From Fretibacter rubidus (lineage in GTDB: Bacteria; Pseudomonadota; Alphaproteobacteria; Caulobacterales; Maricaulaceae): a stretch of 64,000 nucleotides of DNA. The DNA is taken from contig NZ_CP163423.1 of NCBI RefSeq assembly GCF_041429785.1, positions 2,480,001-2,544,000 on the forward strand, in the 5' to 3' direction. A program made the translations under genes and the position numbers. Under the pieces are notes generated by a model. It saw nothing but the letters and a program-made list of their open reading frames with translations, made no database searches and was not told where the DNA came from. Position 1 is the first letter of the stretch. The number at the start of each line of letters is the position of its first letter. Below are positions 1,338-47,201 of this stretch, one piece after another.

Positions 1338-4300
1338 CTAGAAAGTGAACGAGCCAATCAGCGAGATACGACGGTCATTTTCAAAGCGTGAACGCAGGAA
1401 GCGGTCGCCTTGCGGGTTAAACTGCATCGTTGTCTCTGTAATCTCAGAGAGCAAATTCACGCCCTGCACACCGACTTGGAATTGCGGTGTGATTTTATAC
1501 TTGAACGACGCATCCAATTGACCTGTGGCTTCATTGTAAACGGGCAAGCGCGTAATCACGTCAGCCGCCGTCAACAAGAAATCAGAGCGCCAGTTATAGG
1601 CTAAGCGCGCTTCAATTTCGTCAGATTCGTAGAGACCGACGATATTAAACGTATGCTTGGATAGACGCTCCAGGCTATCAATTGGGAAAGGCTCTGTGAA
1701 ATCAGCAACACCGTTCGTTCGCACGGAGCTAATGGCCGAATTCGGAATCCGTGACTGGTCAACATAGGTGTAGTTGGCCTGCATCCCAAAGCCGCTCAGC
1801 GCACCCGGCAAGAAGTCATAGAACTGCTGATAGGCTAGCTCGAAACCTTTTACGTTACCGTCACCAGAGTTTGTTGCACCTGTGAACTGGGATGAAATAT
1901 TACCAATCGCAACGCTCGTGCTGCCACTCGAAATGATATCTTCGAGCTCTTGATAAAAAACCGAGGCCGTCAAAGAGCCGACATCGCTGAAGTAATACTC
2001 AAGAGAGGCATCAATTTTATTAGCCTTCACAGGACGAAGGTCTGGGTTGCCACCATCAACAATAAAACGGTTAAAGGCAAATGTCTCTGACGGACCACCA
2101 GGTTGCCCCGTTGACTGAATATCAGCCCGAATATTGCGGAAATTACGCAATGAGCCAACATCTGGACGCGATATAGAACGTGCCGCAGCAAAGCGCATGA
2201 TGAGCTCATCACTTAAGCCCAATTTCAGGTTAAACGACGGCAAGAAATCAACGAAAGAATTGCTTGCCACATTTTCGACCGACCCTTGAGCAAGAGTTTC
2301 ACACACCTCGCCCAATCCGACCTCGGGGCCACCACCATTTGTAAAGCAGCGATTTTCAGACTGATAATTTGTAAAACCATTTGAGTCGATTTCAGTATTA
2401 ACAATCCGCAGACCATAATTACCCTCGACATCAATGCCGCCGAAGGCATTGACATTGTCTTGACCGAAATCAACACGCGCATAGAGCGCCATTGTTGTCT
2501 CCACCGTGTCAGACAACTGCTCTGGCCCGAAATCAGCGCGAGTACCGCCATGAGGACTCCATCCTTCATTGGGGAATGAACCGCTATTTTGTGTGAAATC
2601 GACTAACGCACGATAATCAGAAACTAAAGCTTCCGACGCAAACAAGAATGTGTCGGCCCCGGTCAAAACATCACCGCGACGGAAGTTATCAAAGGTAAAC
2701 TCCTCAATATTGCCCACCGAACCTGCGTCAACAACGCCGCCAGCCCAAGCTTCTGATAGGTTACCCCAATTGTAATTGGACCAACGCGTTAGCTGATCAC
2801 GTTCGGCGAAACGACCACCAACACGAACAGACTTAAACCAGCCACCGTCTTCAAAATCATATTCAAGATCAGCTCGTAGCGCGAGCTCGTCACCTTCAGA
2901 ATCCTCGAAATGATCCATTGCCGCACGCCAGTAAGCCGTGGACGGATCAGTTGTCGACGCCCCGCCTGAACGTGTGCTTAAGTCATAACCAATTGTAGGG
3001 TCACCACATCCCGTAAAGCCTGTCGCGCAATCACCAAGATTCAGCGCAATATCCAGAGGCTGTGCGACAAAGACCGATATATCAGAATTTTTAACCGTCG
3101 AATCGACATACTGCATGTCAAAATTAGCACGCAAACGATCCGTTGGCGCCCATTTCAAATTCATTGAATAATCAGACGTTACCGTTTCGGTGTCAGACAC
3201 CCGAGTACTGTTGGCAATACGAACGCCCGGAAAACCATACCAGCCTGCGTCTTCGGATGAAATTACGCCAGATTCGAACAAGCTGCCAACGCCAACAGGC
3301 GATACATCATCGCGAGAAAAAGGAACGGTTGTTCCGCCGGGCAAAGATACAGATGTAAGGTCGGAGAAAAAGTTCCCACGACGAGCATTTGGATCTTCCT
3401 CTGACACCATACCGCGCTCTGTCCAAACATTTGATGCTTCGGAACGAATGAACTGACCTGTCAAAACCGTTGAGCCGTCGTTGCTGGCCCACTGACCCGC
3501 AAGAGCAACACCAAGGCGGTCGCGATCAAAGAACTGCGTCCGAATATTGGCCCCAGACGGCGCCGCAATCGTTCCGCCAGCACCATCATCATAAGGATAA
3601 AGCGGTGAAATTTGCGAACCATCAGAACGAGACTTTAGGTTTGAGTAGGAAATATTACCCAAAAGACCAAATTCACCATTTTTCGTATCCCAGCGGTCAG
3701 AAAACTGCGCTGAACCCGACGGTGACCACTCTTCGGCCAGATCAGTATAAGTGCCCTCAACAGTCACAGAGGCAACACGACCTGGACGATCAAATGGCAC
3801 AAGCGTTTTAAGGTTCACGACACCGGAAATACCGCCTTCGATCATATCAGCGGTTTGGTTTTTGAAAACGTCAACACCACCAACAAGCTCTGGCGGGACA
3901 TCCGCAAAACCGAGCGCGCGACCGTTATTGGCCGTAAAAGCGTCACGACCGTTAAATTCGGAGCGAACATAAGACAGACCGCGAATAACAACGCCTGAAC
4001 CTTCAACAGAGAAGTGATCTGGATCATCGCCCGCCGCAAAGCGTGAAATAGAAACACCCGGTACACGCTGTAGGGCTTCAAGGACTGAACGGTCAGGCAG
4101 CGCGCCAATATCAGACGCCGTGATTGAATCAACAAATGTATCAGCGTCACGCTTAATGTCTTGGGCGCGTTGCAGTGACTGGCGAATGCCGGTTGCAACA
4201 ACTTCGTCTTCTTCATCAACAGCTGCATCTTGGGCAAATGATGCTGTGCTAAAGGTTGCTGCCGCCAAAATAGCGATAGAGCCACCGCGAAGCAAATTGC

Positions 4301-4346
4301 GCGCGAAGCTTTGTTGTAGATTCAAATAGGTTGTGGTGTTTTTCAC
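1338..4346 (-). CDS. TonB-dependent receptor, Caulobacter/Xanthomonas carbohydrate type
   Basis: A 1002-residue outer-membrane receptor predicted to import an oligosaccharide using TonB-ExbBD energy. The start is GTG at 4346, behind AAGGGGA. Residues 1-38 form a signal peptide ending ASFA. A TonB-box-like stretch EDEVVATGI follows at about residues 46-54, then the plug domain (QRVPGVSISR, VVIRGLSYVRSEFNGRDAF) and a long beta-barrel ending in the aromatic SFTF. The plug motifs are those of the large receptors common in Caulobacterales, Xanthomonadales and sphingomonads for plant and algal glycans. It is divergent from the halogenase array, and a LacI-type operator lies 69 bp upstream. The neighbouring glycosidases, esterase and xylose genes suggest a xylan- or glucan-derived ligand; this is inference from context only. 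Confidence 0.93.
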   Translation of the reverse strand: MKNTTTYLNLQQSFARNLLRGGSIAILAAATFSTASFAQDAAVDEEDEVVATGIRQSLQRAQDIKRDADTFVDSITASDIGALPDRSVLEALQRVPGVSISRFAAGDDPDHFSVEGSGVVIRGLSYVRSEFNGRDAFTANNGRALGFADVPPELVGGVDVFKNQTADMIEGGISGVVNLKTLVPFDRPGRVASVTVEGTYTDLAEEWSPSGSAQFSDRWDTKNGEFGLLGNISYSNLKSRSDGSQISPLYPYDDGAGGTIAAPSGANIRTQFFDRDRLGVALAGQWASNDGSTVLTGQFIRSEASNVWTERGMVSEEDPNARRGNFFSDLTSVSLPGGTTVPFSRDDVSPVGVGSLFESGVISSEDAGWYGFPGVRIANSTRVSDTETVTSDYSMNLKWAPTDRLRANFDMQYVDSTVKNSDISVFVAQPLDIALNLGDCATGFTGCGDPTIGYDLSTRSGGASTTDPSTAYWRAAMDHFEDSEGDELALRADLEYDFEDGGWFKSVRVGGRFAERDQLTRWSNYNWGNLSEAWAGGVVDAGSVGNIEEFTFDNFRRGDVLTGADTFLFASEALVSDYRALVDFTQNSGSFPNEGWSPHGGTRADFGPEQLSDTVETTMALYARVDFGQDNVNAFGGIDVEGNYGLRIVNTEIDSNGFTNYQSENRCFTNGGGPEVGLGEVCETLAQGSVENVASNSFVDFLPSFNLKLGLSDELIMRFAAARSISRPDVGSLRNFRNIRADIQSTGQPGGPSETFAFNRFIVDGGNPDLRPVKANKIDASLEYYFSDVGSLTASVFYQELEDIISSGSTSVAIGNISSQFTGATNSGDGNVKGFELAYQQFYDFLPGALSGFGMQANYTYVDQSRIPNSAISSVRTNGVADFTEPFPIDSLERLSKHTFNIVGLYESDEIEARLAYNWRSDFLLTAADVITRLPVYNEATGQLDASFKYKITPQFQVGVQGVNLLSEITETTMQFNPQGDRFLRSRFENDRRISLIGSFTF

Positions 4347-4412: not shown

Positions 4413-4432
4413 AATTGACAACGATGTCAATT
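4413..4432. promoter_or_regulatory. LacI-type operator between TonB receptor and halogenase array
   Basis: AATTGACA and TGTCAATT are perfect inverted arms around ACGA. The core on the minus strand is TGACATCGTTGTCA, matching the operators at 13782, 14863, 14884 and 22277 apart from central bases. It lies 69 bp before the receptor start and about 165 bp before the first halogenase start, so control of the receptor is more likely. Confidence 0.7.
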
Positions 4433-4597: not shown

Positions 4598-6124
4598 GTG
4601 AATACAGATAATCGCGACATCCAAAATATTGTTATTGTTGGCGGCGGCACCGCTGGCTGGATGACAGCAGCGGCGCTGACCGCGACCTTGGGTAAAGGTG
4701 GATTAAATGTTACTTTAATTGAATCAGAAGCCATTGGCACCGTCGGTGTTGGCGAGGCGACTTTGCCTCACATTCGGTTTTTTAATCAAAAGCTGGGCAT
4801 TGATGAAGCCACATTAATGCGCGAGACCAAAGCCACCTATAAGCTAGGCATTGAGTTTAAAGATTGGGGCAAGATCGGCGATAGCTATATTCACCCCTTT
4901 GGTGATTTCGGTTTTGATATTAACCGTGTGCCGTTTCATCACTATGTCAGCCGCGCTGCCAAATTGGGACAAAACACACATCTGGATAGCTATTCCCTAC
5001 CCGTCATGGCAGCACGGCACGGAAAGTTTCAACCCCCCCATCCAGACCCTAATAATGTGCTTTCAACTTTTGGATACGCCTATCAATTTGATGCTGGGCT
5101 ATATGCACAATATCTGCGTAAGTTTTCAGAGGCGCGCGGATTGACCCGTCAAGAAGGCCGCGTTGTCCAAACCAATATAAATTCTGAAACTGGCTTCATC
5201 GACAGCGTCACATTGGAAAATGGTCAAGACATTGCGGGAGACTTCTTTATCGACTGTTCTGGCTTTCGTGGGCTTTTGATTAAAGACGCGCTTGGCGTGG
5301 GATATCGGGACTGGACGAATTATTTGCCGTGTAACCGTGCCGTTACGGCAGCGTGTGAACATATTGGTCCGTCCCTACCCTATACAACAGCCACAGCCAA
5401 AGCATCAGGCTGGCAATGGCGCATTCCGCTGCAACACCGCACAGGCAACGGCTATGTTTATTGTTCCGACTTCATATCCGATGACGAAGCGGCAAACACA
5501 TTAATGGCAGACCTTGAAGGTCCAGCCCGCACAGATCCGAAAATGCTACGCTTTACCACAGGTCAACGCGATAAATGCTGGGAGAAAAACTGTGTGGCAG
5601 TCGGGCTGTCGGGTGGATTTTTAGAACCCCTCGAATCAACGGGACTTTATCTAATACAAGAAGCCATCACGAATTTTATAGAACTGTTCCCGACCAAGGA
5701 TTGTGACGCTGTCGACCGTGATGAATATAACCGTATTATGGATATATCGTTCGAGCGGGTGCGCGATTTTCTACTGCTGCATTATGTGGCGACAACTCGC
5801 GACGATAGCCCATTTTGGAACCACTGCCGAACAATGGAAATACCAGACAGCTTGCAATATAAAATGGATTTATTCCGCAGCAGTGGACGTGTTGTGACAT
5901 ATGAAATTGGGGCGTTTAAAGACCCCAGTTGGCTCGCGGTGTATTACGGTCAAAATATCGTTCCGCAAGGCTACAATCCCCTAACCGACTTGATGCCCGA
6001 CACGGTCTTAGCGGGGCAATTGGCGCAAACGGCATCAACCGTTGATAATGCCGTTGGCACGATGCAAAATCACGGCGATTATATAAAACATCATGTGCTG
6101 CGGTCTGCCGCGATGGATGCATAG
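4598..6124 (+). CDS. Flavin-dependent tryptophan-halogenase family protein 1
   Basis: A 508-residue member of the FADH2-dependent halogenase family (PrnA/RebH relatives), which make hypohalous acid at a flavin and halogenate aromatic rings. The FAD-binding motif GGGTAGW is at residues 15-21, GVGEAT at 50-55, the family lysine at Lys82 (YKLGIEF), the diagnostic WQWRIP at 272-277 and the Glu-Ser pair of EPLEST at 346-347. All key residues are therefore present. The start is GTG at 4598. It is the first gene of a tight four-gene array (3-bp gap to the next). No flavin reductase, which these enzymes need, is seen nearby. Close homologues in TonB-receptor loci have unknown native substrates, so halogenation of tryptophan itself should not be assumed. 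Confidence 0.9.
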   Translation: MNTDNRDIQNIVIVGGGTAGWMTAAALTATLGKGGLNVTLIESEAIGTVGVGEATLPHIRFFNQKLGIDEATLMRETKATYKLGIEFKDWGKIGDSYIHPFGDFGFDINRVPFHHYVSRAAKLGQNTHLDSYSLPVMAARHGKFQPPHPDPNNVLSTFGYAYQFDAGLYAQYLRKFSEARGLTRQEGRVVQTNINSETGFIDSVTLENGQDIAGDFFIDCSGFRGLLIKDALGVGYRDWTNYLPCNRAVTAACEHIGPSLPYTTATAKASGWQWRIPLQHRTGNGYVYCSDFISDDEAANTLMADLEGPARTDPKMLRFTTGQRDKCWEKNCVAVGLSGGFLEPLESTGLYLIQEAITNFIELFPTKDCDAVDRDEYNRIMDISFERVRDFLLLHYVATTRDDSPFWNHCRTMEIPDSLQYKMDLFRSSGRVVTYEIGAFKDPSWLAVYYGQNIVPQGYNPLTDLMPDTVLAGQLAQTASTVDNAVGTMQNHGDYIKHHVLRSAAMDA

Positions 6125-6127
6125 CCC

Positions 6128-7549
6128 GTGAGCGAGCCGCGACAATCCATTGTCATCCTAAGCGGAGACATCGCTGGCCCTATGGCGGCGGCCTATCTAG
6201 CGCGACATCTGCCGAAACACAAATACGCTGTGACAGTCGTTGATACGGGCGAATGTGCGCGTGCCAGTTGGTGTAGTGTTGCCCATTACGATTTACGGCG
6301 ATTTAACAAAGCCATTGGCCTATCTGAGCTCGATTTTATAAAAACCACACAGGCCACCTTTAGCTTGGGCGACCACTATGTCGGCTTTGGTGGTGATAAT
6401 GGGGATTTTTATGCGGTTTACGCTGATTACGGCATATCGCTGGGCGGCGCCGCATTCTATCATGCTATGGCCCATTTAGGACGGTTGCCGTCATTACAGG
6501 CTATTGAAAATTACTGCCTTCCCGCCAAAGCCGCCCGCCAGGGCAAGTTCCTGCCGCCCGACACCAAAGGCCGCCCCGTGCTGTCTGATTACAGCTATGG
6601 TTACCACTTTAACGCCGAAGCTTATGCTGCGCAACTGCTCGCATTATCCGAAAAGTTCGGTGTTAATATTGTGAAGGCGTCACTTGTCTCGTTTGATACA
6701 GCAGGCAACCATATTAAAAGCCTGACGCTTGATAACGGCCAGACTTTACAGGCTGATTTATTTATCGATGCCTCTGGCCCAGACGCACGGATTGCCTGTC
6801 AACAATCTACGCGCAAATCTCAAATGTGGTCAGGCTGGGGATTTGCTAAAAGCTACAACTCAGAAACAAAAACCCCTCACGGTTCACTGCCAATAGCCAC
6901 AAAAATAGAGGCAACCAACAGCGGCTGGACGGTCCACGCGCCGCTGCAAAACACAACGCATAAGCTTGTGTTTTCAACGGCAACGGATTGCGACGCCACT
7001 ATTTCGTCTGGACGACAAGAGCAGCTCTGGGTGGGTAATGTCGTAACGCTCGGCACGGCAGCAGCGACCATTGAGCCAAGGTTCGGGGCAACACTTCGCA
7101 TGATGCAATTAGATATTGAGCGGTTATTAAAGCTGTTCCCCCCACAATTAGATGACCCGATTGAACGGTCTGAATTTAACCGACTAAGCGGGGAAACCTA
7201 TGACCGTCTCCGTGATTTTCAGATCCTGCATTATAAACTCGCGGGTACGCCAATGAGTATGAGCGTGCCAGAGTCTGTGCAGTTTAAATATGATCTTTTT
7301 AAAGCCCGAGGCCGCATGGCCATATTGGATGAAGATCATTTGTTTCGCGATCAGTGGGTCAGCCTTTTCCTCGGTCACGGCATAATACCAAAGCGGGTTG
7401 ACCCTATGGTCATCGGCATAAATCCTGACGATGTCGACGACAAAATCAAAGGCCTAGAAACGATTATCGGCCAAGCTACAGCTCAAATGCCAAGCCACGT
7501 TGATTTCATCAAACGTCACTGTGCCGCCGAGGGCTTTGCTTATGACTAG
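6128..7549 (+). CDS. Degenerate halogenase-family protein lacking catalytic residues
   Basis: A 473-residue paralogue of its three neighbours, recognisable by QATFSLGDHY, SGYHFNAEAYAAQL-like and FIDASGPDA segments and by the C-terminal RLRDFQILHY region. Every catalytic signature is changed. The nucleotide-binding GGGTAGW has become SGDIAGP (residues 12-18), and GVGEAT is absent. The family lysine is Ser79. WQWRIPLQHR reads WTVHAPLQNT, and EPLEST reads EPRFGA, so the catalytic Glu-Ser is Phe-Gly. The frame is intact with no internal stop, so it is not an ordinary pseudogene. It is probably a non-halogenating flavoprotein-fold partner, or an enzyme of changed chemistry. The start is GTG at 6128, 3 bp after gene 1; its last 8 bp overlap the start of the next gene. 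Confidence 0.8.
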   Translation: MSEPRQSIVILSGDIAGPMAAAYLARHLPKHKYAVTVVDTGECARASWCSVAHYDLRRFNKAIGLSELDFIKTTQATFSLGDHYVGFGGDNGDFYAVYADYGISLGGAAFYHAMAHLGRLPSLQAIENYCLPAKAARQGKFLPPDTKGRPVLSDYSYGYHFNAEAYAAQLLALSEKFGVNIVKASLVSFDTAGNHIKSLTLDNGQTLQADLFIDASGPDARIACQQSTRKSQMWSGWGFAKSYNSETKTPHGSLPIATKIEATNSGWTVHAPLQNTTHKLVFSTATDCDATISSGRQEQLWVGNVVTLGTAAATIEPRFGATLRMMQLDIERLLKLFPPQLDDPIERSEFNRLSGETYDRLRDFQILHYKLAGTPMSMSVPESVQFKYDLFKARGRMAILDEDHLFRDQWVSLFLGHGIIPKRVDPMVIGINPDDVDDKIKGLETIIGQATAQMPSHVDFIKRHCAAEGFAYD

Positions 7550-9065
7550 AGCAGCGCCCATAAAATCTGTCGCTATTATTGGCGGCGGCACGGCGGGGTG
7601 GATGACAGCAGCCGCCTTGTCGCGTACGCTTGATACACGCCAAACTTCTGTCACATTAATCGAAAGCGAGCAGATCGGCACCGTCGGTGTTGGCGAAGCG
7701 ACCTTGCCGAATATTGCTACCTTTAACCGTATGCTAGGTATTGATGAGCCCGCTTTTATGGCCGCAACACATGCGACGATTAAATACGGCATCGAATTTG
7801 TTGATTGGGGGCAAAAGGGCGAAAGCTATTTTCATCCCTTTGGTACGCATGGTGCGGATATGGACGGGATAAGCTTCCACCACTATTGGCGCGCTTTGAA
7901 ATCACGCGACCCTAACACGCCGCCGATTGAAAGCTTTTGCATGACAGCTATGGCGGCGGCCGCTGGCAAGGCGCTCATGCCGCAACGCGACCCCCGGTCA
8001 CCCTTGTCACGCCTTGCCTATGCGTTTCAATTTGATGCCACGGCCTATGCCGCTTATTTACGCGATTATTCTGAGGCCCGAGGCGTGTCGCGGCGTGAAG
8101 GGAAAGTCGTTGACGTGTCCTTACGCAAAAATGACGGATTTATTAGCTCGGTCACCATGATGGACGGCACCGAGATTAAAGCGGATCTATTCATTGATTG
8201 CTCTGGCTTTCGTTCCTTGCTGCTCGGCAAAGCATTGGGCACCGATTACGATGACTGGTCGCACTACCTGCCTGTGAATAGCGCCCAAGCTGTGCCGTGC
8301 GAAAAAGTCAGCCCTGCCCTGCCTTACACGCGTTGCACAGCCAAACGCGCGGGCTGGCAATGGCGTATCCCGCTGCAACACCGCACAGGCAATGGCTATG
8401 TCTATGCGTCAGATTATATTGATGACGATGCGGTCACAACCGAGCTTTTGGGCAGTCTTGGCGGGACACCAACAGGCGAGGTGAAACAGCTTCGCTTTAC
8501 AACGGGACAGCGCAAAGATTTCTGGGTCAAAAATTGTATCGGGCTTGGTCTATCCGCTGGATTTTTAGAACCGCTAGAAAGCACCTCAATTTACCTCATT
8601 CAGACGGGCATTACAAAGCTACTCGCTTTGTTCCCTGATAGCGATTTCAAATCTGTGGAACGGGATGAATATAATAAAATTATGCATAAAGAATTTGAAC
8701 AAGTGCGTGATTTCCTCATGCTGCATTATATTGCCACAAAACGTAATGATGATGCGTTTTGGGATTATGTACGCACCATGCCTGTCCCAGACAGTCTGCA
8801 AAATAAACTAGACCTATTCAAAGGCAATGGCCGCTTTTTCCGCTATGATGGCGATTTGTTTACAGAGACAAGTTGGGTGGCGGTATTTTTGGGTCAGAAT
8901 ATTATGCCAGAAGGTTACAACCCGCTCGTGGATGCGATTGAGCCCCAGCAACTTCAAGACAGCTTAGGGTCTATGCAAAACGCCATCGCCAAAGCCGCCC
9001 GAGCAATGCCGAGCCATGAAGATTTTTTAAAACAATACGGCGCAATTAGCACGAGACAATCATGA
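7542..9065 (+). CDS. Flavin-dependent tryptophan-halogenase family protein 3
   Basis: A 507-residue halogenase homologue. I chose ATG at 7542, which overlaps the previous stop codon by 8 bp and gives a length matching its paralogues; an upstream in-frame ATG at 7500 would add 14 residues with no family counterpart. It contains GGGTAGW near residue 15, GVGEAT, the lysine in IKYGIEF, WQWRIPLQHR and LEPLESTSIY. The catalytic Lys and Glu are therefore present, with Ser in place of Gly after EST compared with protein 1. It ends with TGA overlapping the ATG of the fourth gene (ATGA), indicating translational coupling. The paralogues are clearly diverged rather than recent copies. Confidence 0.9.
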   Translation: MTRAAPIKSVAIIGGGTAGWMTAAALSRTLDTRQTSVTLIESEQIGTVGVGEATLPNIATFNRMLGIDEPAFMAATHATIKYGIEFVDWGQKGESYFHPFGTHGADMDGISFHHYWRALKSRDPNTPPIESFCMTAMAAAAGKALMPQRDPRSPLSRLAYAFQFDATAYAAYLRDYSEARGVSRREGKVVDVSLRKNDGFISSVTMMDGTEIKADLFIDCSGFRSLLLGKALGTDYDDWSHYLPVNSAQAVPCEKVSPALPYTRCTAKRAGWQWRIPLQHRTGNGYVYASDYIDDDAVTTELLGSLGGTPTGEVKQLRFTTGQRKDFWVKNCIGLGLSAGFLEPLESTSIYLIQTGITKLLALFPDSDFKSVERDEYNKIMHKEFEQVRDFLMLHYIATKRNDDAFWDYVRTMPVPDSLQNKLDLFKGNGRFFRYDGDLFTETSWVAVFLGQNIMPEGYNPLVDAIEPQQLQDSLGSMQNAIAKAARAMPSHEDFLKQYGAISTRQS

Positions 9066-10582
9066 CCGATAAACAGATTAAAAACATCGTTATTATTGGT
9101 GGCGGCACAGCAGGGTGGATGGCTGCTGCGGCGCTGTCCAAAATCATGGGGCGTTCGAATATTAAAATCTATTTGGTTGAAAGCGAAGCCATTGGAACGG
9201 TCGGTGTTGGAGAAGCCACCATCCCCCAAATTGCGCTATTTAATGACCTGCTGGGCATTAATGAAAACGAGTTTATGGCCAAGACCCAAGCCACGTTTAA
9301 ACTGGGCATCGAATTTAAAGATTGGTCCGCGAAAGGCGATAGCTATATCCACCCATTTGGAGGTTACGGAGTGGATATGGAAGGCATTCACTTCCACCAT
9401 TTCTGGCTCCGTTTAAAATCAGTTATGGGTAATATTCCACCGCTGTCAGATTTCTGCCTGCAAGCTTATGGGGCCGCGCGAAACAAGTTTACCCGCCCGA
9501 TGGATGTGCCGCGCTCACCGCTGTCTAAAATCCATTATGCCTTTCAATTTGATGCGGGACTTTACGCAAAGTTCTTACGCGAGCTATCTGAAAAAAATGG
9601 TGTCACGCGCACGGAAGGACGGGTCACAAACGTTGTCCAAGATGGTGCAACAGGTCATATTACCTCTGTCACCCTAGAGGACGGCACAGACATTAAAGGT
9701 GACTTCTTTATCGACTGCACTGGCTTTATCGGGCTGCTGATTTCTAAAACTCTGGGCGTTGGATATGATGATTGGTCAGAGCACTTACCTGTTAATCGCG
9801 CCGTGGCCATTGCATGTCGTCAAGCGGATGACCCTATACCTTATACCCGCGCCACAGCGCGCGATGCCGGCTGGCAATGGCGCATTCCACTGCAACACCG
9901 CCTAGGCAATGGCTATGTTTATTGCGATAGATTTCTGACCCCTGAGCAAGCAGAAGCGGATTTACGTGAAACATTAGAAGGTGAGCCGCTGGCCCCTGCT
10001 AAGCACCTAAAATTTACGACAGGGATACGGGATAAAGTCTGGCATAAAAACTGCCTTGCCTTGGGCTTATCGGCAGGCTTCATGGAACCGCTAGAGAGTA
10101 CTTCTATTCATTTGATCCAAACGGGATTATCGCGCCTTATGTCAAACTTTCCAGATATGGATTTTGATAACAGTGTCATTGATTATTACAATGAACGCAC
10201 GCGCAATGAATATATCCGCGTGCGAGATTTCCTCGTTCTACATTACAAAGCTAGCACCCGCGATGACACACCGTTTTGGCGGCATGTTCAAAGCCTACCT
10301 GTCAGTGATAAATTAGCGCAAAAAATGGATGTGTTCAAATCTACAGGTCGTGTATTTCGCGAAGATAATGAGCTATTTAATGAGACCAGCTGGCTGGCTG
10401 TCATGCATGGTCAAAAGCTGGAACCCAAGAGCTACCACCCCGTTGTCCATGTCCTATCAGACGCCGAGATTAAACAGAGGCTAGAAGAGATACGCGCCAC
10501 AGTGATTAATTCTGAAAAAGTGATGCCCCGTCATATTGATTACATCAATGAGCACTGCAAAGCCGAGAGTGAGCGTTTTTAA
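9062..10582 (+). CDS. Flavin-dependent tryptophan-halogenase family protein 4
   Basis: A 506-residue last member of the array, with GGGTAGW at about 13-19, GVGEAT, FKLGIEFKDW with the family lysine, GWQWRIPLQHR and MEPLESTSIH. All expected catalytic residues are present. The start ATG at 9062 overlaps the previous stop by 4 bp. The array ends here: the oppositely oriented esterase lipoprotein terminates 4 bp later. Proteins 1, 3 and 4 are full-length and apparently functional, so the locus may encode three halogenases of different site or substrate specificity plus one inactive relative. Confidence 0.9.
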   Translation: MTDKQIKNIVIIGGGTAGWMAAAALSKIMGRSNIKIYLVESEAIGTVGVGEATIPQIALFNDLLGINENEFMAKTQATFKLGIEFKDWSAKGDSYIHPFGGYGVDMEGIHFHHFWLRLKSVMGNIPPLSDFCLQAYGAARNKFTRPMDVPRSPLSKIHYAFQFDAGLYAKFLRELSEKNGVTRTEGRVTNVVQDGATGHITSVTLEDGTDIKGDFFIDCTGFIGLLISKTLGVGYDDWSEHLPVNRAVAIACRQADDPIPYTRATARDAGWQWRIPLQHRLGNGYVYCDRFLTPEQAEADLRETLEGEPLAPAKHLKFTTGIRDKVWHKNCLALGLSAGFMEPLESTSIHLIQTGLSRLMSNFPDMDFDNSVIDYYNERTRNEYIRVRDFLVLHYKASTRDDTPFWRHVQSLPVSDKLAQKMDVFKSTGRVFREDNELFNETSWLAVMHGQKLEPKSYHPVVHVLSDAEIKQRLEEIRATVINSEKVMPRHIDYINEHCKAESERF

Positions 10583-10586
10583 TTAA

Positions 10587-12287
10587 TTAGTCCAGATGGG
10601 GCCTTAACTGCTCAGCCCAAAGGGCGTAGCCTGCATCATTCAGATGTAAGCCGTCATAGGTCAGTGTCGGGTCCAATGTACCGTCATCAGCGGAAAACTC
10701 ATCCGTTAAATCAATCCAGGTCACACCCGCTTGCACGGCATTCTCACGCAAAGACTTATTCATCGTATGAACCTCATCGCGCTTATCAATGTCCCGCGGT
10801 AGAATGGACTGCACGTATATATCTGCCTTTGGAAAGCGCTTTTTCAAAATCTCTATCAGAGTTTTATAATTTGCCTTTATGTCGGTTTTTGCGACGCCCC
10901 AGCTTAGGTCATTGGTGCCAATCATGACAAAAATCTTATTTGGGTTATGGCGGGATATTTGCGGCATACGCGCAAGAACGCCCGCCGTCGTATCCCAACC
11001 CACACCATGATTTGTAAGGGACCTGACTGGTAGTAAATCCTCACGGCCCAACCAGCCTTCCGTGATGCTATCACCAATTAACATGACGCCGTTCTTGATG
11101 ATTGGGGCGCCGTCAATAGCCTGAACACGGTTTTTAAAATGCGTTTGACCGTCTTTGGGCAAGTCAGGCGGCGTAATCATGGGCAACGCCGTGCGTAAAT
11201 CCCAGCCCGTTTGCTGAGTGATATGCACAGACAATTCGCGCGCTATTTTGGCCATGCTGTCACGACCTGGGTGGCTATTACAGCTCCATTTTATACCTGT
11301 ATTTGACAGGCTTACATCAAGAGTCGAAATTTCATTATCCGCCATTGCATCCATAGCAAAATCAATGCCGTCGCGAATAGCCGCCCCTTTTTCACCGCCC
11401 AAGAGCGGGCCGTTCACCGTTACGATATGCGCCGCAGGAAAGCGCGTGCGAAAGTTACGTAACATGTGCAGATAGCCACTGCGAAATTTATCGCGCCCCG
11501 GATTTATCACCGACCAATCATTGGTGCCCAAAGTGGTAACAATCACGTCAGGCGTGAATTTGGAATGATCCCAGAGCGGGCCAGCCACATCATCAGGCAG
11601 CGCATAATCAATTTGCATTGGCATGACGGGGGCAGGGTTGGCGTCCCAATTATGCACCACACCTCGGCCTGATATTGCAATCAATTGCGCCTCTGCCGCA
11701 AGGGTGTCTGCCGTCAGACTAGCGTAAGCTTGCAAAGGCGCATTCGTGCTAGGGTCGTACTCGCAGTCTTTTGTTGTGCCGCGCACACCAAACCCCGCCG
11801 TAATACTATCACCCATGAACAATATTTTTCGGTTTGGGCGATCACGATTGAGAAGGCGTCCGTCTATCATCGACGCGCGAATTGTGAACAGTCCTGTATC
11901 AAACACTTCTGTTCGGCGAGTAACAGAGACGTCAAAATTAGCTGACTTGGTCACGTCGACTACCGAGTAACGATGAACCCCAGCCTTTAGCTTTAGCGGT
12001 GTGTGTTCTTGACCATTGATGACGACATCCATGATACCGTGACCGTCATCTTCAATCTCTATTGAAAATGTCTGGCCGTGAAAGGACAACGCAAGCCCAG
12101 AGCCTGGCCACCCCATTTTTAAGCCGTCATCCGTTGCCACGTGACGCCCCAAAACGGTGAGTTTTTCATTATCAAAGGAAATAAGTTTTTCAGTCGTTGC
12201 AGAACCACAGGCCGAGGCGATCACTGCCAAAGCTATTAGAAAAAACCGTATAAAAAAAGCGAGGGTAGGTCGTGCGCTTAACTGCAT
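10587..12287 (-). CDS. Two-domain esterase lipoprotein: CE2-like plus second SGNH hydrolase
   Basis: A 566-residue exported protein with lipobox ASAC (Cys27). Residues of roughly 40-140 look like the jelly-roll of carbohydrate esterase family 2. An SGNH esterase domain follows, with FMGDSITAGFG, TLGTNDWS and a C-terminal HPGRDS carrying the candidate His. A second, separate SGNH/GDSL domain begins near residue 370, with MLIGDSITEGW, IGTNDLSWG and DGLHLNDAG supplying Asp and His. CE2 enzymes deacetylate xylan- and mannan-type sugars, which fits the xylose genes nearby. The second domain resembles GDSL lipases/acetylhydrolases. It lies 39 bp downstream of the sugar permease, on the same strand, and is probably co-transcribed. 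A fusion of two esterase modules is unusual. Confidence 0.85.
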   Translation of the reverse strand: MQLSARPTLAFFIRFFLIALAVIASACGSATTEKLISFDNEKLTVLGRHVATDDGLKMGWPGSGLALSFHGQTFSIEIEDDGHGIMDVVINGQEHTPLKLKAGVHRYSVVDVTKSANFDVSVTRRTEVFDTGLFTIRASMIDGRLLNRDRPNRKILFMGDSITAGFGVRGTTKDCEYDPSTNAPLQAYASLTADTLAAEAQLIAISGRGVVHNWDANPAPVMPMQIDYALPDDVAGPLWDHSKFTPDVIVTTLGTNDWSVINPGRDKFRSGYLHMLRNFRTRFPAAHIVTVNGPLLGGEKGAAIRDGIDFAMDAMADNEISTLDVSLSNTGIKWSCNSHPGRDSMAKIARELSVHITQQTGWDLRTALPMITPPDLPKDGQTHFKNRVQAIDGAPIIKNGVMLIGDSITEGWLGREDLLPVRSLTNHGVGWDTTAGVLARMPQISRHNPNKIFVMIGTNDLSWGVAKTDIKANYKTLIEILKKRFPKADIYVQSILPRDIDKRDEVHTMNKSLRENAVQAGVTWIDLTDEFSADDGTLDPTLTYDGLHLNDAGYALWAEQLRPHLD

Positions 12288-12326: not shown

Positions 12327-13739
12327 CTAGCCTTGCATGTCCTCAAGTTCCATCCCTTTTGTCTCCGAGACACCTTTGATAACAAAGAAGATAGAGAGGA
12401 AGGCGAAGGCGGCATAAATACCAAATGACGCTGCAAGACCGATGGAGCCAAGCATCACTGGGAATGACAGCGTCACAAGGAAGTTAGCCATCCACTGTGC
12501 AAATCCTGCAACCGCCAAGGCTGAACCGCGGATTTGATTGGGGAACATTTCACCAAGCAGCACCCACATCACAGGGCCCCACGTCATGTTAAAGAAGAAC
12601 ACATAAGCCATAGCCGCATAAAGCGCAGTGCGTCCCATATTATCGCTTAGCACCAAGGCGTCATTGACCAACTCGCCCGATGAAAAGGCATAAGCGACAA
12701 TGGCTAGCATAATTGACATACCGATAGAACCAATCAGCAAGAACGGCTTACGACCAAATCTATCAATGAGGAACAATGTGATGAGCGTCGCGAAAATTGA
12801 CATCACACCCATAAAGACATTTTGCTTAAGCGCGTCAGCCTCTGTAAAGCCGGCTGCTTCCCACATCACGGCACCGTAATAGAAGATCACGTTGATACCG
12901 ACTAATTGCTGGAACACAGCCAAACCAATACCAACCCAAACGATTGGACGTAATCCGCCGCCGCTCGTCTTTAATAAATCCGACAACCGTGGTTTATGGT
13001 CACTTGCGAGAGACGCTTTAATTTCGTTGATTTTATTGGCAGCCACATCGCTACCAAATAGCCGTGTCATTGATGCAAGCGCACCAGGTTCATCGCCTTT
13101 CACCATTAAATAACGCGGGCTTTTGGGAATGAAAAACAGCAGGATTAGGAACAAAAAGGCAGGGGCCAATTCAACCCAAAACATCCAGCGCCATGTTTCA
13201 TGACCATTAAAAATTTCCGTGGCCCCACCCGATGCACCTGCGAGGTAGTAATTCGAGAAAAACGCAGCCGTTAGACCCACAACAATGGCAATCTGTTGAA
13301 TGGAAGCCAGACCGCCGCGTAAATGGGCTGGTGCAATTTCAGAAATATAAGCTGGAGCCATGACCGATGCTGCGCCAACAGCCAAACCGCCAAAAATACG
13401 AAAAATAATAAAGCTGCCCGAACTGCCTGCGATACCAGAGCCCCAAGCGGATATTATAAAGAAAACCGCTGCAATCATCATCATATTACGACGACCATAT
13501 TGATCGGATAACTTGCCCGCAAAAAATGCACCGACAGCACAACCAAGCAGCATAGAGGCTACATTTAGCCCACTGGCAAAATTCTCTGCGTTAAAGGCCG
13601 CATCAAGGCCTTTAACGGTGCCGTTAATAACCCCGCTGTCAAAGCCAAATAGAAAGCCGCCTAGCGTTGCGACAAGGCAAATTAGGACAATGAATCCTAT
13701 GTTACCCGACTGTTTTGAACTGGTCGATGTATCTGACAT
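12327..13739 (-). CDS. Sugar porter, major facilitator superfamily
   Basis: A 470-residue inner-membrane permease with about 12 predicted membrane segments. Sugar-porter signatures are GFLFGFDSGVINGT in helix 1, DQYGRRN in the first cytoplasmic loop, PKSPRYLM after helix 6, QQLVGINVIFYY in helix 7, and DRFGRKP in the second half. Relatives (XylE, GalP, Glf types) import xylose, glucose or galactose by proton symport or facilitated diffusion. Adjacent xylose and glucose catabolic genes suggest one of these sugars. The start ATG at 13739 follows GGGGATAGAG. A LacI-type operator lies 42 bp upstream, so expression is probably derepressed by the sugar sensed by the neighbouring LacI protein. Confidence 0.93.
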   Translation of the reverse strand: MSDTSTSSKQSGNIGFIVLICLVATLGGFLFGFDSGVINGTVKGLDAAFNAENFASGLNVASMLLGCAVGAFFAGKLSDQYGRRNMMMIAAVFFIISAWGSGIAGSSGSFIIFRIFGGLAVGAASVMAPAYISEIAPAHLRGGLASIQQIAIVVGLTAAFFSNYYLAGASGGATEIFNGHETWRWMFWVELAPAFLFLILLFFIPKSPRYLMVKGDEPGALASMTRLFGSDVAANKINEIKASLASDHKPRLSDLLKTSGGGLRPIVWVGIGLAVFQQLVGINVIFYYGAVMWEAAGFTEADALKQNVFMGVMSIFATLITLFLIDRFGRKPFLLIGSIGMSIMLAIVAYAFSSGELVNDALVLSDNMGRTALYAAMAYVFFFNMTWGPVMWVLLGEMFPNQIRGSALAVAGFAQWMANFLVTLSFPVMLGSIGLAASFGIYAAFAFLSIFFVIKGVSETKGMELEDMQG

Positions 13740-13781
13740 CTCTATCCCCTTTATATTTATTTACCCTAAGCAATGCCAAAA

Positions 13782-13795
13782 TGACAAGGTTGTCA
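13782..13795. promoter_or_regulatory. LacI-type operator upstream of sugar permease
   Basis: TGACAAGGTTGTCA has 6-bp inverted arms and a GG centre. It is 42 bp before the permease start. The same 14-mer occurs twice in the lacI/GH3 intergenic region. Confidence 0.75.
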
Positions 13796-13820
13796 ATCGT
13801 TTTCACGGACAATGACGACT

Positions 13821-14819
13821 TTAGTTCGGGATAAACGGCCCTGTAGAATCACGGATGACCAATTCATGCGGTAGTTTAACGACGATTTCTTCATCGCTAT
13901 CTTGCCGTCTTTTTTGATCAAGAAGGGCAATCGCCTTTTGGCTCATATCGCGGGTGGCTTGGTGCAATGTAGTCAAAGCAGGGTAAATCACCCGCGCCAC
14001 GGGACTGTCATCAAACCCAGTTACCGACAGCTTTTCAGGCACGCGAATATTACGGCGATAAGCTGCGGCAAGACACCCTGCCGCCATTTCGTCATTGCTG
14101 GCAAATATCGCTGACGGGCGGTTTTCTAGCGCCAAAAGACGCTCTGAAAGCGTAAGCCCCGATGCATAAGTGAAGTCGCCGCGCTCTATGATGTCATTAT
14201 CAAAAGCTATACCCGCTGCCTGCAAAGCGTCGCAATAGCCCTTATAACGGCGCAAGCTGGCCTCATGGTCTTGCGGTCCGCAAATAAAACCAATGCGTCT
14301 ATGACCAAGGCCAATCAAATAATTTGTCATATCCACCGCCGCTGCACGGTCATCAATACCGACCTGGTTGCTGCCTGCCACAGACCGCTCGGTGCCGATA
14401 CGCACAAAGGGCACGCGCGCAGCATTCAATCGTGCAATAATTTTTGGGTCGTCGGATTGCGGCGGCGTTAGGATAGCGCCGAGCAAACCATCCTGCGCGG
14501 CGAGCCGTTCTATGGCACCGTTTTTTTCAGGGTCTTCAACAACCAGTGTGAAACCTGCGTCTTGGCATCCTGCCATGGCACCAATTTGCACATCCTGGGC
14601 ATAGCTGCGCGAGGGATTATTCAAAAACAGTGCCACCAAATGCGGCGTCTTAGAGCGCAATCGCCGGGCGGCACTGTTAACCCGATAATTTAAGGCCTGG
14701 GCAGCCTGCAAAACTTTATCTTTGGTTTCGGGGCGCACATTTGATTCGCCGTTCAGCACACGGGAGACCGTTTTGAACGACACCCCAGCCTGTTTTGCGA
14801 CATCAATTATCGTTGTCAT
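13821..14819 (-). CDS. LacI-family transcriptional regulator 1
   Basis: A 332-residue repressor. The N-terminal helix-turn-helix reads IDVAKQAGVSFKTVSRVLNG, and the hinge helix follows at about residues 46-60 (NSAARRLRSK). A periplasmic-binding-protein-like effector domain occupies the rest (FICGPQDHEASLRRYKG, ASNDEMAAG, SVTGFDDS). The effector is probably a sugar or sugar phosphate released from the glycan handled by the island. It is transcribed away from the GH3-xylB-xylA operon. The shared intergenic region carries two copies of an operator that also precedes the permease gene, so autoregulation together with control of both flanking operons is likely. The ATG at 14819 follows GGGGATAG. 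Confidence 0.9.
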   Translation of the reverse strand: MTTIIDVAKQAGVSFKTVSRVLNGESNVRPETKDKVLQAAQALNYRVNSAARRLRSKTPHLVALFLNNPSRSYAQDVQIGAMAGCQDAGFTLVVEDPEKNGAIERLAAQDGLLGAILTPPQSDDPKIIARLNAARVPFVRIGTERSVAGSNQVGIDDRAAAVDMTNYLIGLGHRRIGFICGPQDHEASLRRYKGYCDALQAAGIAFDNDIIERGDFTYASGLTLSERLLALENRPSAIFASNDEMAAGCLAAAYRRNIRVPEKLSVTGFDDSPVARVIYPALTTLHQATRDMSQKAIALLDQKRRQDSDEEIVVKLPHELVIRDSTGPFIPN

Positions 14820-14880: not shown

Positions 14881-14900
14881 AATTGACAAGGTTGTCAATT
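14881..14900. promoter_or_regulatory. LacI-type operator, GH3-proximal copy
   Basis: AATTGACAAGGTTGTCAATT is a palindrome with 9-bp arms and a GG centre, the best copy in the window. It lies about 50 bp before the GH3 start and on the same helical face as the 14863 site, consistent with cooperative binding by a LacI dimer pair. Confidence 0.8.
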
Positions 14901-14948: not shown

Positions 14949-17375
14949 ATGATGTCGAGACTATCCACTCTGATTTTAACACGCTGTGCTGTGATGGCAC
15001 TGACCGCTTGTACCGCCCAAGGTCCCGTCTCTGACAAGGCTACTACCGATAGTCACGTTAAAGGGGCCATGGACACCCTGCCCGTCGTCACCACATCGAC
15101 ATCCGACCGCGTTAATCAACTTCTGGCGGATATGACACTAGACGAAAAACTCGCACAAATCAGCTGCATTTGGTTTGACAAAGCCAAAGTATTAGAAACG
15201 GACGGCAGCTTTAATCCAGAGAAAATGAAGGCAGAATTTCCGCACGGTATTGGATGCTTTGCTCGCCCACAAGACACCTTTGGCATGGAAGAACAAGCCG
15301 CAGACCGCGACCCTAATGACAGCTCTGTTGTTCGGCGCATGTCGGCGCGCACACCATCAGAGACTGTTGCCTTAATTAATGATATTCAAAAATGGCATAT
15401 TGAGGAAACACGTCACGGTATACCAACTATGTTCCACGAAGAAGGCCTACATGGTTTTCAGGGGCGCTACGCCACGTCATTTCCGCAATCTATCGCGCTG
15501 GCTGCGACCTTTGATACGGACCTTGTCAAAGAAGTCTATTCTGTTACCGCGCGTGAAATTCGCGTGCGAGGCGCGCATCATGTGCTCTCGCCCGTTGTTG
15601 ATATTGCCCTTGATCCGCGTTGGGGTCGTATTGAGGAAACCTTTGGCGAGGACCCTTATCTTGTGTCGCGTATGGGTGTTGCGGCAATTAACGGTTTTCA
15701 AGGCGACGGATTTCCCATCGCTGATGACAAAGTTCTAACCACACTGAAGCATATGACAGGTCACGGACAACCCGAAGCCGGTATGAATGTCGGGCCGAGC
15801 CAAGTATCAGAGCGCGTTTTGCGCGAGACATTCTTCCCACCCTTTGAAGCGGCCGTGAAAGAAGCAGGTGCGGCATCTGTCATGGCAAGCTATAATGAAA
15901 TTGACGGCATTCCGTCCCATGCCAATCCGTGGCTTTTAAATGATATCCTGCGCGGCGAATGGGGGTTTGACGGCGTTGTGGTCGCTGATTACTTCGCCAT
16001 TAACGAGCTAGAGCGTCGTCACCACATTGTTGATAATTTGGCGGACGCTGGCGCGATTGCACTGCGCTCTGGCGTTGATATTGAGCTCCCTGACGGGGTG
16101 GCTTATTATCAATTGAAGGAAAAAATCGAAGCGGGCGAATTTGACGTAAAATATGTCGATCAAGCTGTCCGCCGTATGTTGGAAATGAAAGAGCGCGGCA
16201 ATGTCTTTGACACGCCTTTCGCTGACGGCGAAGCGGCAGATGCCCTCACGGGTAACGCAGAGGCCCGCGCCCTTGCCACAACCGCAGCACATAAAGGCGC
16301 TGTGCTTTTAAAAAACGAAGGCGGTCTTCTTCCGCTCGATGCGTCTAAATATAATAAAATCGCCGTCATCGGCCCTAATGCCGCCATTACTGTGCTGGGC
16401 GGATATAGCGACGAACCCCGCCAGACGATTTCTATTCTTGATGGTATCACAGCCAAAGTCGGCGCCGACAAAGTCGTCCACGCCCAAGGCGTGACGCTGA
16501 CTGATAATCGCTCTTGGTGGGATGACGCGGTTAACCTGACCGACCGCGATCAGAACCTGTCTGATATTTACAAAGCTGTTTCCGTCGCGAAAGACGCAGA
16601 CTTAATCATTCTAGCTATCGGCGGGGATGAAAGCACATCGCGCGAAGCGTGGAATGAGCAACATATGGGTGACCGCAATGATATTACCCTTATCGGCGAA
16701 CAAAAGGAACTTATCGACGCCCTAGCCGCGACCGGGAAGCCGATGGCTACTGTCGTTATTTCGGGCCGTCCGCTGTCACTGGCTAATGTCGAGGATAAAT
16801 TACCTGCCATTTTATATGGCTGGATTTTGGGTCAAGAAACAGGCACAGCGGTTGCGGATATTTTGTTTGGTGACGTTAATCCCTCTGGCAAAATGCCTGT
16901 AACGGTGCCCCGCACCGTCGGACAAATCCCAGCGTTTTACAATCATAAGCCCACGGCACGCCGCGGCTATGCTTTTGCTGACGCCAGCCCGCTTTATGCA
17001 TTTGGTTATGGCCTGTCTTACACGACATTTGAGATATCAGAGCCTAGCCTGTCTGCCGCGACAATTGCGCCTGACGGAACAACGAGCGTCTCTGTCTCTG
17101 TGACGAACACGGGCGATGTTGCGGGCGACGAAGTTGTGCAGCTATATATCCGCGACAAGGTCAGTTCCGTGACCCGCCCTGTCAAAGAGCTAAAAGGTTT
17201 TGCCCGCGTAAGCCTTGCACCTGGCGAGACAAAGACCGTGAGTTTGCCTATCATCAAAGACGCGTTGCAATTTTTCAACCGTGATATGGTGCGTGTCGTC
17301 GAGCCTGGTGAATTTGACATCATGGTCGGCAATAGTTCTGATAATGTGAAAACGACAACGCTGACTGTGAAATAG
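14949..17375 (+). CDS. GH3 beta-xylosidase/beta-glucosidase lipoprotein
   Basis: An 808-residue exported enzyme with lipobox LTAC (Cys21). Landmarks are the N-terminal TIM barrel with HEEGLHGF and LSPVVDIALDPRWGR, the LKHMTGHGQPE loop, and GVVVADYFAINEL whose Asp is the predicted nucleophile. The alpha/beta sandwich (KIAVIGPNA, GWILGQETG, PSGKMPVTVPR) and a C-terminal fibronectin-III-like domain (VTNTGDVAGDEVVQLYI) complete the long GH3 form. The role is exo-hydrolysis of periplasmic oligosaccharides. The gene ends 2 bp before xylB and 1.5 kb before xylA, so release of xylose (beta-xylosidase activity) is favoured over glucose. Two adjacent ATG codons (14949, 14952) are possible starts behind AGGGGATT. 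Paired LacI operators precede it. Confidence 0.92.
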   Translation: MMSRLSTLILTRCAVMALTACTAQGPVSDKATTDSHVKGAMDTLPVVTTSTSDRVNQLLADMTLDEKLAQISCIWFDKAKVLETDGSFNPEKMKAEFPHGIGCFARPQDTFGMEEQAADRDPNDSSVVRRMSARTPSETVALINDIQKWHIEETRHGIPTMFHEEGLHGFQGRYATSFPQSIALAATFDTDLVKEVYSVTAREIRVRGAHHVLSPVVDIALDPRWGRIEETFGEDPYLVSRMGVAAINGFQGDGFPIADDKVLTTLKHMTGHGQPEAGMNVGPSQVSERVLRETFFPPFEAAVKEAGAASVMASYNEIDGIPSHANPWLLNDILRGEWGFDGVVVADYFAINELERRHHIVDNLADAGAIALRSGVDIELPDGVAYYQLKEKIEAGEFDVKYVDQAVRRMLEMKERGNVFDTPFADGEAADALTGNAEARALATTAAHKGAVLLKNEGGLLPLDASKYNKIAVIGPNAAITVLGGYSDEPRQTISILDGITAKVGADKVVHAQGVTLTDNRSWWDDAVNLTDRDQNLSDIYKAVSVAKDADLIILAIGGDESTSREAWNEQHMGDRNDITLIGEQKELIDALAATGKPMATVVISGRPLSLANVEDKLPAILYGWILGQETGTAVADILFGDVNPSGKMPVTVPRTVGQIPAFYNHKPTARRGYAFADASPLYAFGYGLSYTTFEISEPSLSAATIAPDGTTSVSVSVTNTGDVAGDEVVQLYIRDKVSSVTRPVKELKGFARVSLAPGETKTVSLPIIKDALQFFNRDMVRVVEPGEFDIMVGNSSDNVKTTTLTVK

Positions 17376-18836: not shown

Positions 18837-20153
18837 ATGAGCGGCTATTTTGATCATATTGACCCTATTAAATTTGAAGGAAAAGACAGCGATGATCCGC
18901 TGGCCTTTAAATATTATGACTCGTCTAAAAAGATTATGGGCAAAACAATCGCAGAGCATTTGCGCGTCTCTGTTTGTTATTGGCATAATTTCTGTTGGGA
19001 CGGCTTTGACGTCTTTGGCGGCGGCACGTTTAATCGGCCTTGGCATGGTGACAAAAATGACCAAGCCGCCGCAGAGGCAAAGCTAGACGCAGCCTTTGAT
19101 TTCTTTGACCGCCTTGGTAATAAATTTTGGTGCTTCCACGATGTCGACGTTATGGCCGCAGCAGAAACCCCGCGCCAGCACGTTGAAAATTTTGCCACCA
19201 TTGTCGATAAAATTGAAGCCAAAATGGACGCCCGCGATATTAATCTGCTGTGGGGTACAGCCAATATGTTTTCGCATCCACGCTATATGGCGGGGGCATC
19301 CACCAATCCCAATCCTGATGTGGCCGCCTTTGCGGCACTACAAGTCAAACATTGCCTAGAGGCGACACACCGTTTGGGCGGATCAGGTTATGTCTTGTGG
19401 GGCGGGCGCGAAGGCTATGACACAATCCTTAACACCAATGTCGGACAGGAGATGAACCAATTAGGGCGATTCCTTAACATGGTCGTCGAGCATAAACATA
19501 AGATCGGATTTAAAGGTGATATATGGGTCGAACCGAAACCACATGAGCCAACAAAACATCAATATGACCGCGATGTTGGGACGATCTACGGCTTTTTGAA
19601 AGAACACGGCCTAGAGGGGCAAGTGGGGGTGAATATTGAACCCAACCACGCGACTTTGGCGGGCAATAGTTTTGAGCATGAAATTGAAATGGCCAATGCC
19701 TTTGGTATGTTTGGGTCGATCGATTTCAATCGCGGTGATCCGCAAAATGGCTGGGACACCGACCAGTTTCCCAATGACCTGCGCGAGACCACACTGGCGC
19801 TCTATTACATCCTTAAGGGCGGTGGTTTTAAAAACGGCGGCTCTAATTTTGATGCCAAAGTGCGTCGCCAAAGTATAGATGCCGAAGACTTGTTCCATGG
19901 TCATATTGGCGGGATGGATTTGCTGGCCCGCGCACTGGAAAATGCGGCGGCTATGATTGAGACGGATACGTTGCAAGCATTTAAAGACGCACGCTATGCA
20001 GGATGGAAATCAGGTATGGGGGCCAAAATGATGGACGGCTCTGCAGATTTAGACGCTATGGCCGGCTATAGTTTGTCAGTTAACACATCCCCTGCTCCCA
20101 TTTCTGGCGCGCAGGAAAAACTGGAAAACTATATTACAAATGCTGTGAAATAA
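18837..20153 (+). CDS. xylA: Xylose isomerase
   Basis: A 438-residue class II xylose isomerase converting D-xylose to D-xylulose in the cytoplasm. Diagnostic segments are KFWCFHDVDV with the catalytic His, LWGGREGYD, WVEPKPHEPTKHQYD with metal-ligand Glu, VNIEPNHATLAG, FGSIDFNRGDPQNGWDTD with metal-ligand Asp, and the C-terminal LLARALE. Length and motifs match the long class II enzymes. The ATG at 18837 has a good Shine-Dalgarno sequence (AAGGAG). It is the last gene of the GH3-xylB-xylA operon and converges on the aldose epimerase gene, with 5 bp between the stops. Confidence 0.96.
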   Translation: MSGYFDHIDPIKFEGKDSDDPLAFKYYDSSKKIMGKTIAEHLRVSVCYWHNFCWDGFDVFGGGTFNRPWHGDKNDQAAAEAKLDAAFDFFDRLGNKFWCFHDVDVMAAAETPRQHVENFATIVDKIEAKMDARDINLLWGTANMFSHPRYMAGASTNPNPDVAAFAALQVKHCLEATHRLGGSGYVLWGGREGYDTILNTNVGQEMNQLGRFLNMVVEHKHKIGFKGDIWVEPKPHEPTKHQYDRDVGTIYGFLKEHGLEGQVGVNIEPNHATLAGNSFEHEIEMANAFGMFGSIDFNRGDPQNGWDTDQFPNDLRETTLALYYILKGGGFKNGGSNFDAKVRRQSIDAEDLFHGHIGGMDLLARALENAAAMIETDTLQAFKDARYAGWKSGMGAKMMDGSADLDAMAGYSLSVNTSPAPISGAQEKLENYITNAVK

Positions 20154-22231: not shown

Positions 22232-22276
22232 CACAGCGCCATTAGCCCTATAGACTTTTGAATAACTAAGCTGTAT

Positions 22277-44975: not shown

Positions 44976-47201
<2,226 letters not shown>

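Follow-up and report, generated by a model that had tools for sequence, protein, structure and literature searches.

The genes described here lie in a 64,000-nucleotide stretch of the Fretibacter rubidus genome (contig NZ_CP163423.1, positions 2,480,001 to 2,544,000; ‘the window’, with coordinates counted from its first base), where four plus-strand open reading frames at 4598–10582 form a tandem array of flavin-dependent halogenase homologues, H1 to H4. Working along the array, H1 (4598–6124; 508 aa, PF04820 score 623.5 bits) is separated by a gap of 3 bp from H2 (6128–7549; 473 aa, 245.5 bits), which overlaps H3 (7542–9065; 622.7 bits) by 8 bp, and H3 in turn overlaps H4 (9062–10582; 506 aa, 623.6 bits) by 4 bp; H3 has 507 aa when read from its ATG (7542), and its longest open reading frame starts further upstream, at a TTG at 7500. 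Upstream of H1, across a gap of ~250 bp, a divergently oriented gene (1338–4346, minus strand) encodes a TonB-dependent receptor (TBDR) of 1002 aa, which matches TIGR01782 over cut-off (617 bits) as well as PF00593 and PF07715. This layout agrees with an initial annotation of the same DNA, which had proposed four tandem homologues, three with catalytic residues, facing a TBDR within a sugar-utilisation island; the neighbouring genes are those of xylan and xylose use (see below).

H1, H3 and H4 each contain the GGGTAGW motif, the catalytic lysine (K82 in H1), WQWRIP and the glutamate of EPLEST (E346 in H1). At the corresponding positions H2 reads SGDIAG, has Ser for Lys, WTVHAP, and Phe for Glu; both GxGxxG and WxWxIP are lost. 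A structural model of H2 nevertheless has a mean pLDDT of 91.9 and superposes on BrvH with a TM score of 0.90, an alignment of 50 sequences with ten canonical homologues among them having favoured the halogenase fold. H2 thus appears to be a member of the PF04820 flavin-dependent halogenases by descent and predicted fold only. We see no export signal in any of the array enzymes.

To view the array in relatives we used two samples. The first combined an H2 search in 41 genomes with an H1-alignment search of a named genome collection, the latter set being the best 80 of 545 H1 relatives and therefore leaning to H1; with the window included (loci L043–L162) it holds 24 arrays of four genes, 2 of five and 19 of three, in organisms that include Caulobacter, Asticcacaulis, Robiginitomaculum, Maricaulis, Sphingomonas, Erythrobacter and Niveispirillum, together with the gammaproteobacteria Aliiglaciecola, Gilvimarinus and Cellvibrio. 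The second was anchored on the receptor (alignment A3), so that halogenase genes would play no part in the choice of loci: the receptor was found at E values up to 1e-240 in 80 of 299 genomes of the order, and the sample comprises 80 loci drawn from three receptor searches (60 of 97, 19 of 23 and 1 of 11 places; for the search that gave 97, 11 places were already in the first set, the 26 weakest were left out, and the two best candidates per genome were scored). Matches were given priority in gene calling, since antisense reading frames hide genes in these GC-rich loci; a few arrays (L083, L087, L149, L154) remain split by starts called too far upstream, and counts of H1–H2 pairs are therefore based on stop codons.

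In all 24 four-gene arrays of the first sample the second gene is the lowest scorer, at 23–496 bits against 713–807 for its siblings, and a single alignment shows Lys, Glu and WxW retained by the first, third and fourth genes of every array; at position 2 the lysine is kept in 1 of 24 (L131), the glutamate in 5 (L054 by a doubtful alignment), and both in none. The receptor-anchored sample repeats this pattern, with four-gene arrays at 34 loci and the second gene lowest in each. Among the 30 that are absent from the first set (duplicated loci omitted), position 2 keeps Lys in four, Glu in one and both in none; the pair is kept at positions 1 and 3 in 30/30 and at position 4 in 29/30, one array being cut by a contig end. 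Pooling gives 54 distinct four-gene arrays, all below 95% identity in H1 and forming 45 groups at 80% (L054 is counted, its second gene of 266 aa having no Pfam match and only 23 bits): the Lys/Glu pair is never complete at position 2, and is intact in 54/54 at positions 1 and 3 and in 53/54 at position 4, again with one contig-end cut. For the second gene, the ‘diverged paralogues’ of the initial annotation is an incomplete description: this gene encodes a catalytically dead partner of H1 that is conserved across the arrays.

Arrays of other sizes largely follow suit. The second gene lacks Lys or Glu in 16 of the 19 three-gene arrays, the exceptions being L056, with all three genes intact; L126, where the third gene (478 bits) has lost other motif residues and keeps Lys and Glu; and L160, whose contig begins at a gene without Glu. 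In the five-gene arrays L108 (8451-16130) and L116 (5653-13330) it is the third gene that scores weakest (632 and 616 bits respectively), without Glu in L116 and with both Lys and Glu in L108; these third genes look to be in early degeneration and could help to trace how catalysis was lost. Beyond H4, some arrays continue with a TPR protein and a CBM_4_9-like protein (L043:13274-14678; L050:5460-6894).

H1 and H2 travel as a pair. Class models place H2 immediately after 97 of 101 distinct H1 genes, and H1 immediately before 100 of 104 H2 calls; the models were trained by position, such that these counts are partly circular for four-gene arrays, though not for split ones. Three of the four exceptional H1 genes are H1-type members of the five-gene arrays, and the fourth is that of L134, with a degenerate, ambiguously classed second gene; the four exceptional H2 calls are those of L160, which lies at the end of a contig, and of L126, where H2 sits behind another type, together with two weak matches in L195. 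Split arrays (L048, L229, L230, L231, L234, L237, L239) keep the pair together, and H3 and H4 are also found without it. In a FastTree phylogeny, from which L054.4.2 was dropped, the H1 genes group in a supported clade, the grouping of H3 and H4 mostly follows position and has weak support, and the second genes sit on long branches, the nearest row to each being mostly another second gene.

Ordinary tandem duplication, with H2 a decaying copy of no special role, would account for its being the fastest-evolving member of the array (mean pairwise identity 0.28, against 0.55–0.58 for H1, H3 and H4) and for its shortening in several lineages, in some of which it has 344–377 aa and lacks the WxWxIP segment. 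This explanation is very improbable, however: the H2 frame is open at position 2 in all 54 arrays and stands nearly always directly after H1, and the degenerate gene has dN/dS values of 0.19–0.43 in seven pairs, compared with 0.06–0.26 in its siblings (rough ratios, with several dS above 2; L043/L044 is saturated and gives none). H2 is under purifying selection. The open frames and low dN/dS also led us to reject a frameshift or annotation artefact. We hold it somewhat likelier than otherwise that H1 and H2 form a heteromer, in which H1 would be the flavin enzyme and H2, its fold kept, a non-catalytic subunit that serves as scaffold or in substrate hand-off; H3 and H4 would be additional active flavin enzymes.

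The second constant of these loci is the receptor. All 26 arrays of four or more genes have it within 6 kb, where GH3 is found at 14, Cupin_8 at 9, LacI at 8 and MFS at 4; home-made models served for every family except PF04820 and the receptor, so that absences of these neighbours are soft. Nor are array and receptor unlinked in relatives, the outcome that the initial annotation had set against its own proposal: starting from the receptor, a halogenase homologue lies within 5 kb at 77 of 80 loci and within 9 kb at 79. Two of the three remaining receptors have an array ~5 kb away, and the third sits on a 7 kb contig, in a genome that carries halogenase genes starting at the edge of another contig. 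A single clade of 54 receptors (support 0.98) takes in those of all 40 arrays with at least three genes; of the 46 outside it, seven are F. rubidus receptors that stand beside no halogenase gene, and the other 39 have one or two such genes next to them. These data strongly support both a receptor-linked module and its dead partner, and we are confident that the four genes constitute a module dedicated to the receptors of a single TBDR clade.

The same association recurs within the F. rubidus genome (3.45 Mb, one contig), whose 11 PF04820 genes (12 matches, H2 being matched twice) occupy five places, the window and L063, L064, L065 and L066, each with a TBDR gene within 1.3 kb. Chance linkage can be rejected, as only ~5% of the genome lies that close to a receptor by rough arithmetic. 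Eight receptors of the genome score over the TIGR01782 cut-off, three of them beside halogenase genes, and there are 33 plug-domain matches. Behind the receptor of L063 (5859-14813) come, in this order, GH16, a halogenase homologue, SapC, Cupin_8 and another halogenase homologue; at L064 (6502-12172) a single halogenase gene is flanked on one side by the receptor and on the other by a TPR protein that has a putative 2OG-Fe(II) oxygenase domain.

Distances between receptors and array proteins add detail to this relationship. Over 51 arrays (L054, L221 and eight duplicated loci left out), the correlation between receptor and H4 distances is 0.89, and the partial correlation with the receptor is 0.52 for H4 (reached by 0 of 500 permutations), 0.20 for H3 (0 of 500) and 0.09 for H1 (0.8%); it is H4 that co-varies most with the receptor.

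What might such enzymes act upon? One answer is a small aromatic molecule (a ligand of phenolic or indolic nature, or a glycan substituent of feruloyl type) taken up via the receptor or produced in response to it, with H2 still aiding H1. The array locus of the window, a xylan/xylose island, includes an esterase, and aromatic esters can occur on xylans. Against this, the sugar-related neighbours are not constant: of the 80 anchored receptors, 42 have GH3 within 9 kb, 34 LacI, 10 MFS, 4 XylB and 1 XylA (and 20 have Cupin_8), compared with the 79 that have a halogenase homologue. Because the receptor is constant and the sugar genes are variable, an aromatic substituent of glycan, one of the substrates offered by the initial annotation, is less favoured. 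A substituent would moreover need to enter the cytoplasm, given enzymes without visible export signals, and three or four enzymes are many for one small ligand. Weak bromination of free indole by BrvH (PMC5945002) speaks for a small-molecule substrate, which we regard as possible, if on the unlikely side.

BrvH is of wider relevance here, since the nearest solved relatives of H1, H3 and H4 are BrvH (PDB 6frl), Xcc4156 (PDB 6y1w) and 9luq, at 457–514 bits, with PrnA, RebH and PyrH matching more weakly (at most ~315 bits); by sequence, the three enzymes are closer to the BrvH/Xcc4156 group than to the tryptophan halogenases. PrnA, RebH and PyrH have the family and motifs of the array proteins in common but serve natural-product pathways, and no biosynthetic cluster is seen at the array locus. 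BrvH (from Brevundimonas) and Xcc4156 (from Xanthomonas) have the same catalytic residues as H1, H3 and H4, and their fold is common to the H2 model, although H2, unlike them, lacks those residues. According to the BrvH paper, the group has a short, open substrate loop, a second halogenase gene adjoins that of BrvH, as in our array, and BrvH brominates indole slowly and does not accept tryptophan, its authors doubting that indole is the natural substrate (PMC5945002). A peptide substrate has been suggested for BrvH, an idea extended to Xcc4156 by that enzyme's authors (PMC7336383).

It is also conceivable that the array proteins are no longer halogenases and have become flavin oxygenases, oxidases or sensors for sugars or envelope parts, with H2 a regulatory or ligand-binding paralogue. 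In favour of this reading, hydroxylating families occur in the superfamily: QhpG, a related flavoprotein, dihydroxylates a Trp inside a protein (PMC7876137). The models for QhpG, GoxB and LodB, which act in tryptophylquinone cofactor formation, give the array proteins only 23–47 bits, far under cut-offs of 240–400. Set against such a change of function, which we think improbable, are the retention of Lys, Glu and WxWxIP in H1, H3 and H4 of nearly all arrays, and the presence of an indole brominator, BrvH, among the nearest solved relatives.

Of the candidate substrates, the one we place first, albeit doubtfully, is the receptor polypeptide itself. In its favour are the peptide substrate proposed earlier for BrvH and Xcc4156 (PMC7336383) and the precedent of QhpG, a related flavoprotein that modifies a Trp within a protein (PMC7876137). 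In a model of the receptor (pLDDT 81.8), W527 and W534 (codons at 2766–2768 and 2745–2747) lie at the beginning of an 88-residue segment, residues 523–610 (2517–2780, minus strand), between strands 504–522 and 611–632; its length and the usual topology of such receptors suggest that this predicted loop is extracellular. W527 is present in 54/54 receptors of the clade and in 3/46 outside it, W534 in 53/54 and 28% respectively; the adjacent N526 is found in 54/54 of the clade and in 77 of the 81 receptors formed by the second sample and the window, all 81 of which have both tryptophans. Our best overall explanation, which we hold tentatively, is of a receptor module with an H1–H2 pair that modifies the receptor before export: with FADH2 supplied by a general reductase elsewhere in the cell, the enzymes would halogenate or oxygenate an aromatic group, for which W527 and W534 of the clade-specific surface loop are candidate sites. 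The initial annotation's remark that no flavin reductase is nearby holds for the PF01613 family, whose only copy found in the genome lies unlinked at 1.739 Mb, other reductase families being outside the search.

Several observations weigh against this explanation. Glycan binding accounts for the loop tryptophans equally well, and among the 81 receptors, all of which keep W527 and W534, none was found without a halogenase that could separate the two possibilities. As the enzymes have no visible export signal and the loop would lie outside, modification would have to precede export. At 16 receptor-anchored loci of the array clade there is one enzyme, placed between the H3 and H4 classes, and no H1–H2 pair; the second genes form no single clade, their common ancestor spanning the whole FastTree phylogeny (an unsure placement, given the long branches); and no co-evolution between H2 and the receptor was found once H1, H3 and H4 were accounted for, the partial correlation being -0.05, a value reached by 95% of 500 permutations.

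The broadest form of the proposal, in which an outer-membrane nutrient receptor is halogenated or oxygenated on invariant tryptophans of an extracellular loop by flavin enzymes encoded in its own cluster, among them one that is heteromeric with a dead halogenase, and in which this is the native role of BrvH/Xcc4156-type enzymes, is speculative and, taken whole, somewhat unlikely. Even so, the locus provides three direct handles on the native substrate of such enzymes: a receptor that is constant, a dead partner that is almost invariable and a probable sugar-responsive control. BrvH and Xcc4156 were studied singly; should related enzymes also require a partner, the weak activity of single enzymes could be explained. 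Halogenase genes neighbouring receptors have reportedly been noted before in Xanthomonas and Caulobacter. In the portions available of the BrvH (PMC5945002) and Xcc4156 (PMC7336383) texts, ‘TonB’ occurs 0 times and neither a receptor nor a dead partner is mentioned; the open-access full-text literature, which was the scope of our search to the exclusion of subscription papers, gave no description of the array or of the dead partner among the matches listed. Overall, the interpretation offered by the initial annotation is partly supported.

Turning to the surroundings of the array, H4 is followed on the minus strand by a GDSL esterase with a CE2 N-terminal domain (10587–12287), which is acetylxylan-esterase-like (AxeC2 model, 197 bits, under the cut-off of 500), and then by genes that profile matches identify as an XylE-like sugar porter of the MFS (12327–13739) and a LacI-family regulator (13821–14819). 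On the plus strand come a GH3 glycosidase, probably of xylosidase type (14949–17375; xylosidase models match under their cut-offs), the xylulokinase XylB (17378–18826; TIGR01312 over cut-off) and the xylose isomerase XylA (18837–20153; TIGR02630 over cut-off), and thereafter an aldose epimerase, a second LacI and zwf-pgl-edd-glk; by annotation, the locus is a xylan/xylose island. It combines a TBDR, an inner-membrane sugar transporter, a regulator and degradative enzymes, the composition that defines a CUT locus, and in this it resembles those of Xanthomonas and Caulobacter, where receptor, inner-membrane transporter, regulator and glycosidases stand together. A xylan CUT locus with an inducible receptor has been described, in a text whose available part does not contain the word ‘halogenase’ (PMC1790865), whereas here four homologues belong to the locus.

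The gap between the receptor and H1 contains a LacI-type palindrome, ATTGACAACGATGTCAAT (4414–4431), which matches without mismatch a pattern that was read from this very site. Further copies lie in the MFS–LacI gap (13780–13797, 2 mismatches) and the LacI–GH3 gap (14882–14899, 1 mismatch), with a weaker one (22275–22292, 3 mismatches) directly upstream of zwf-pgl-edd-glk and another, also with 3 mismatches, outside the island at 46938; the window thus has five matches to the central W-CG-W form at up to 3 mismatches, the source site included, where 0.07 are expected. From this distribution we infer that LacI would bind the palindrome, and that the array and xylan/xylose catabolism are probably under joint control of a LacI repressor. 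Given the weaker copy upstream of them, the Entner-Doudoroff genes zwf-pgl-edd-glk may share this control. In 104 loci totalling 2.06 Mb there are 39 occurrences of the core TGACA-N4-TGTCA, and 20 of them fall within the 30.6 kb of receptor–halogenase gaps (with 60-base margins), at 18 of the 104 loci including the window. Finally, on the far side of the receptor, a GH3-like reading frame at 1–1173 runs off the start of the window.

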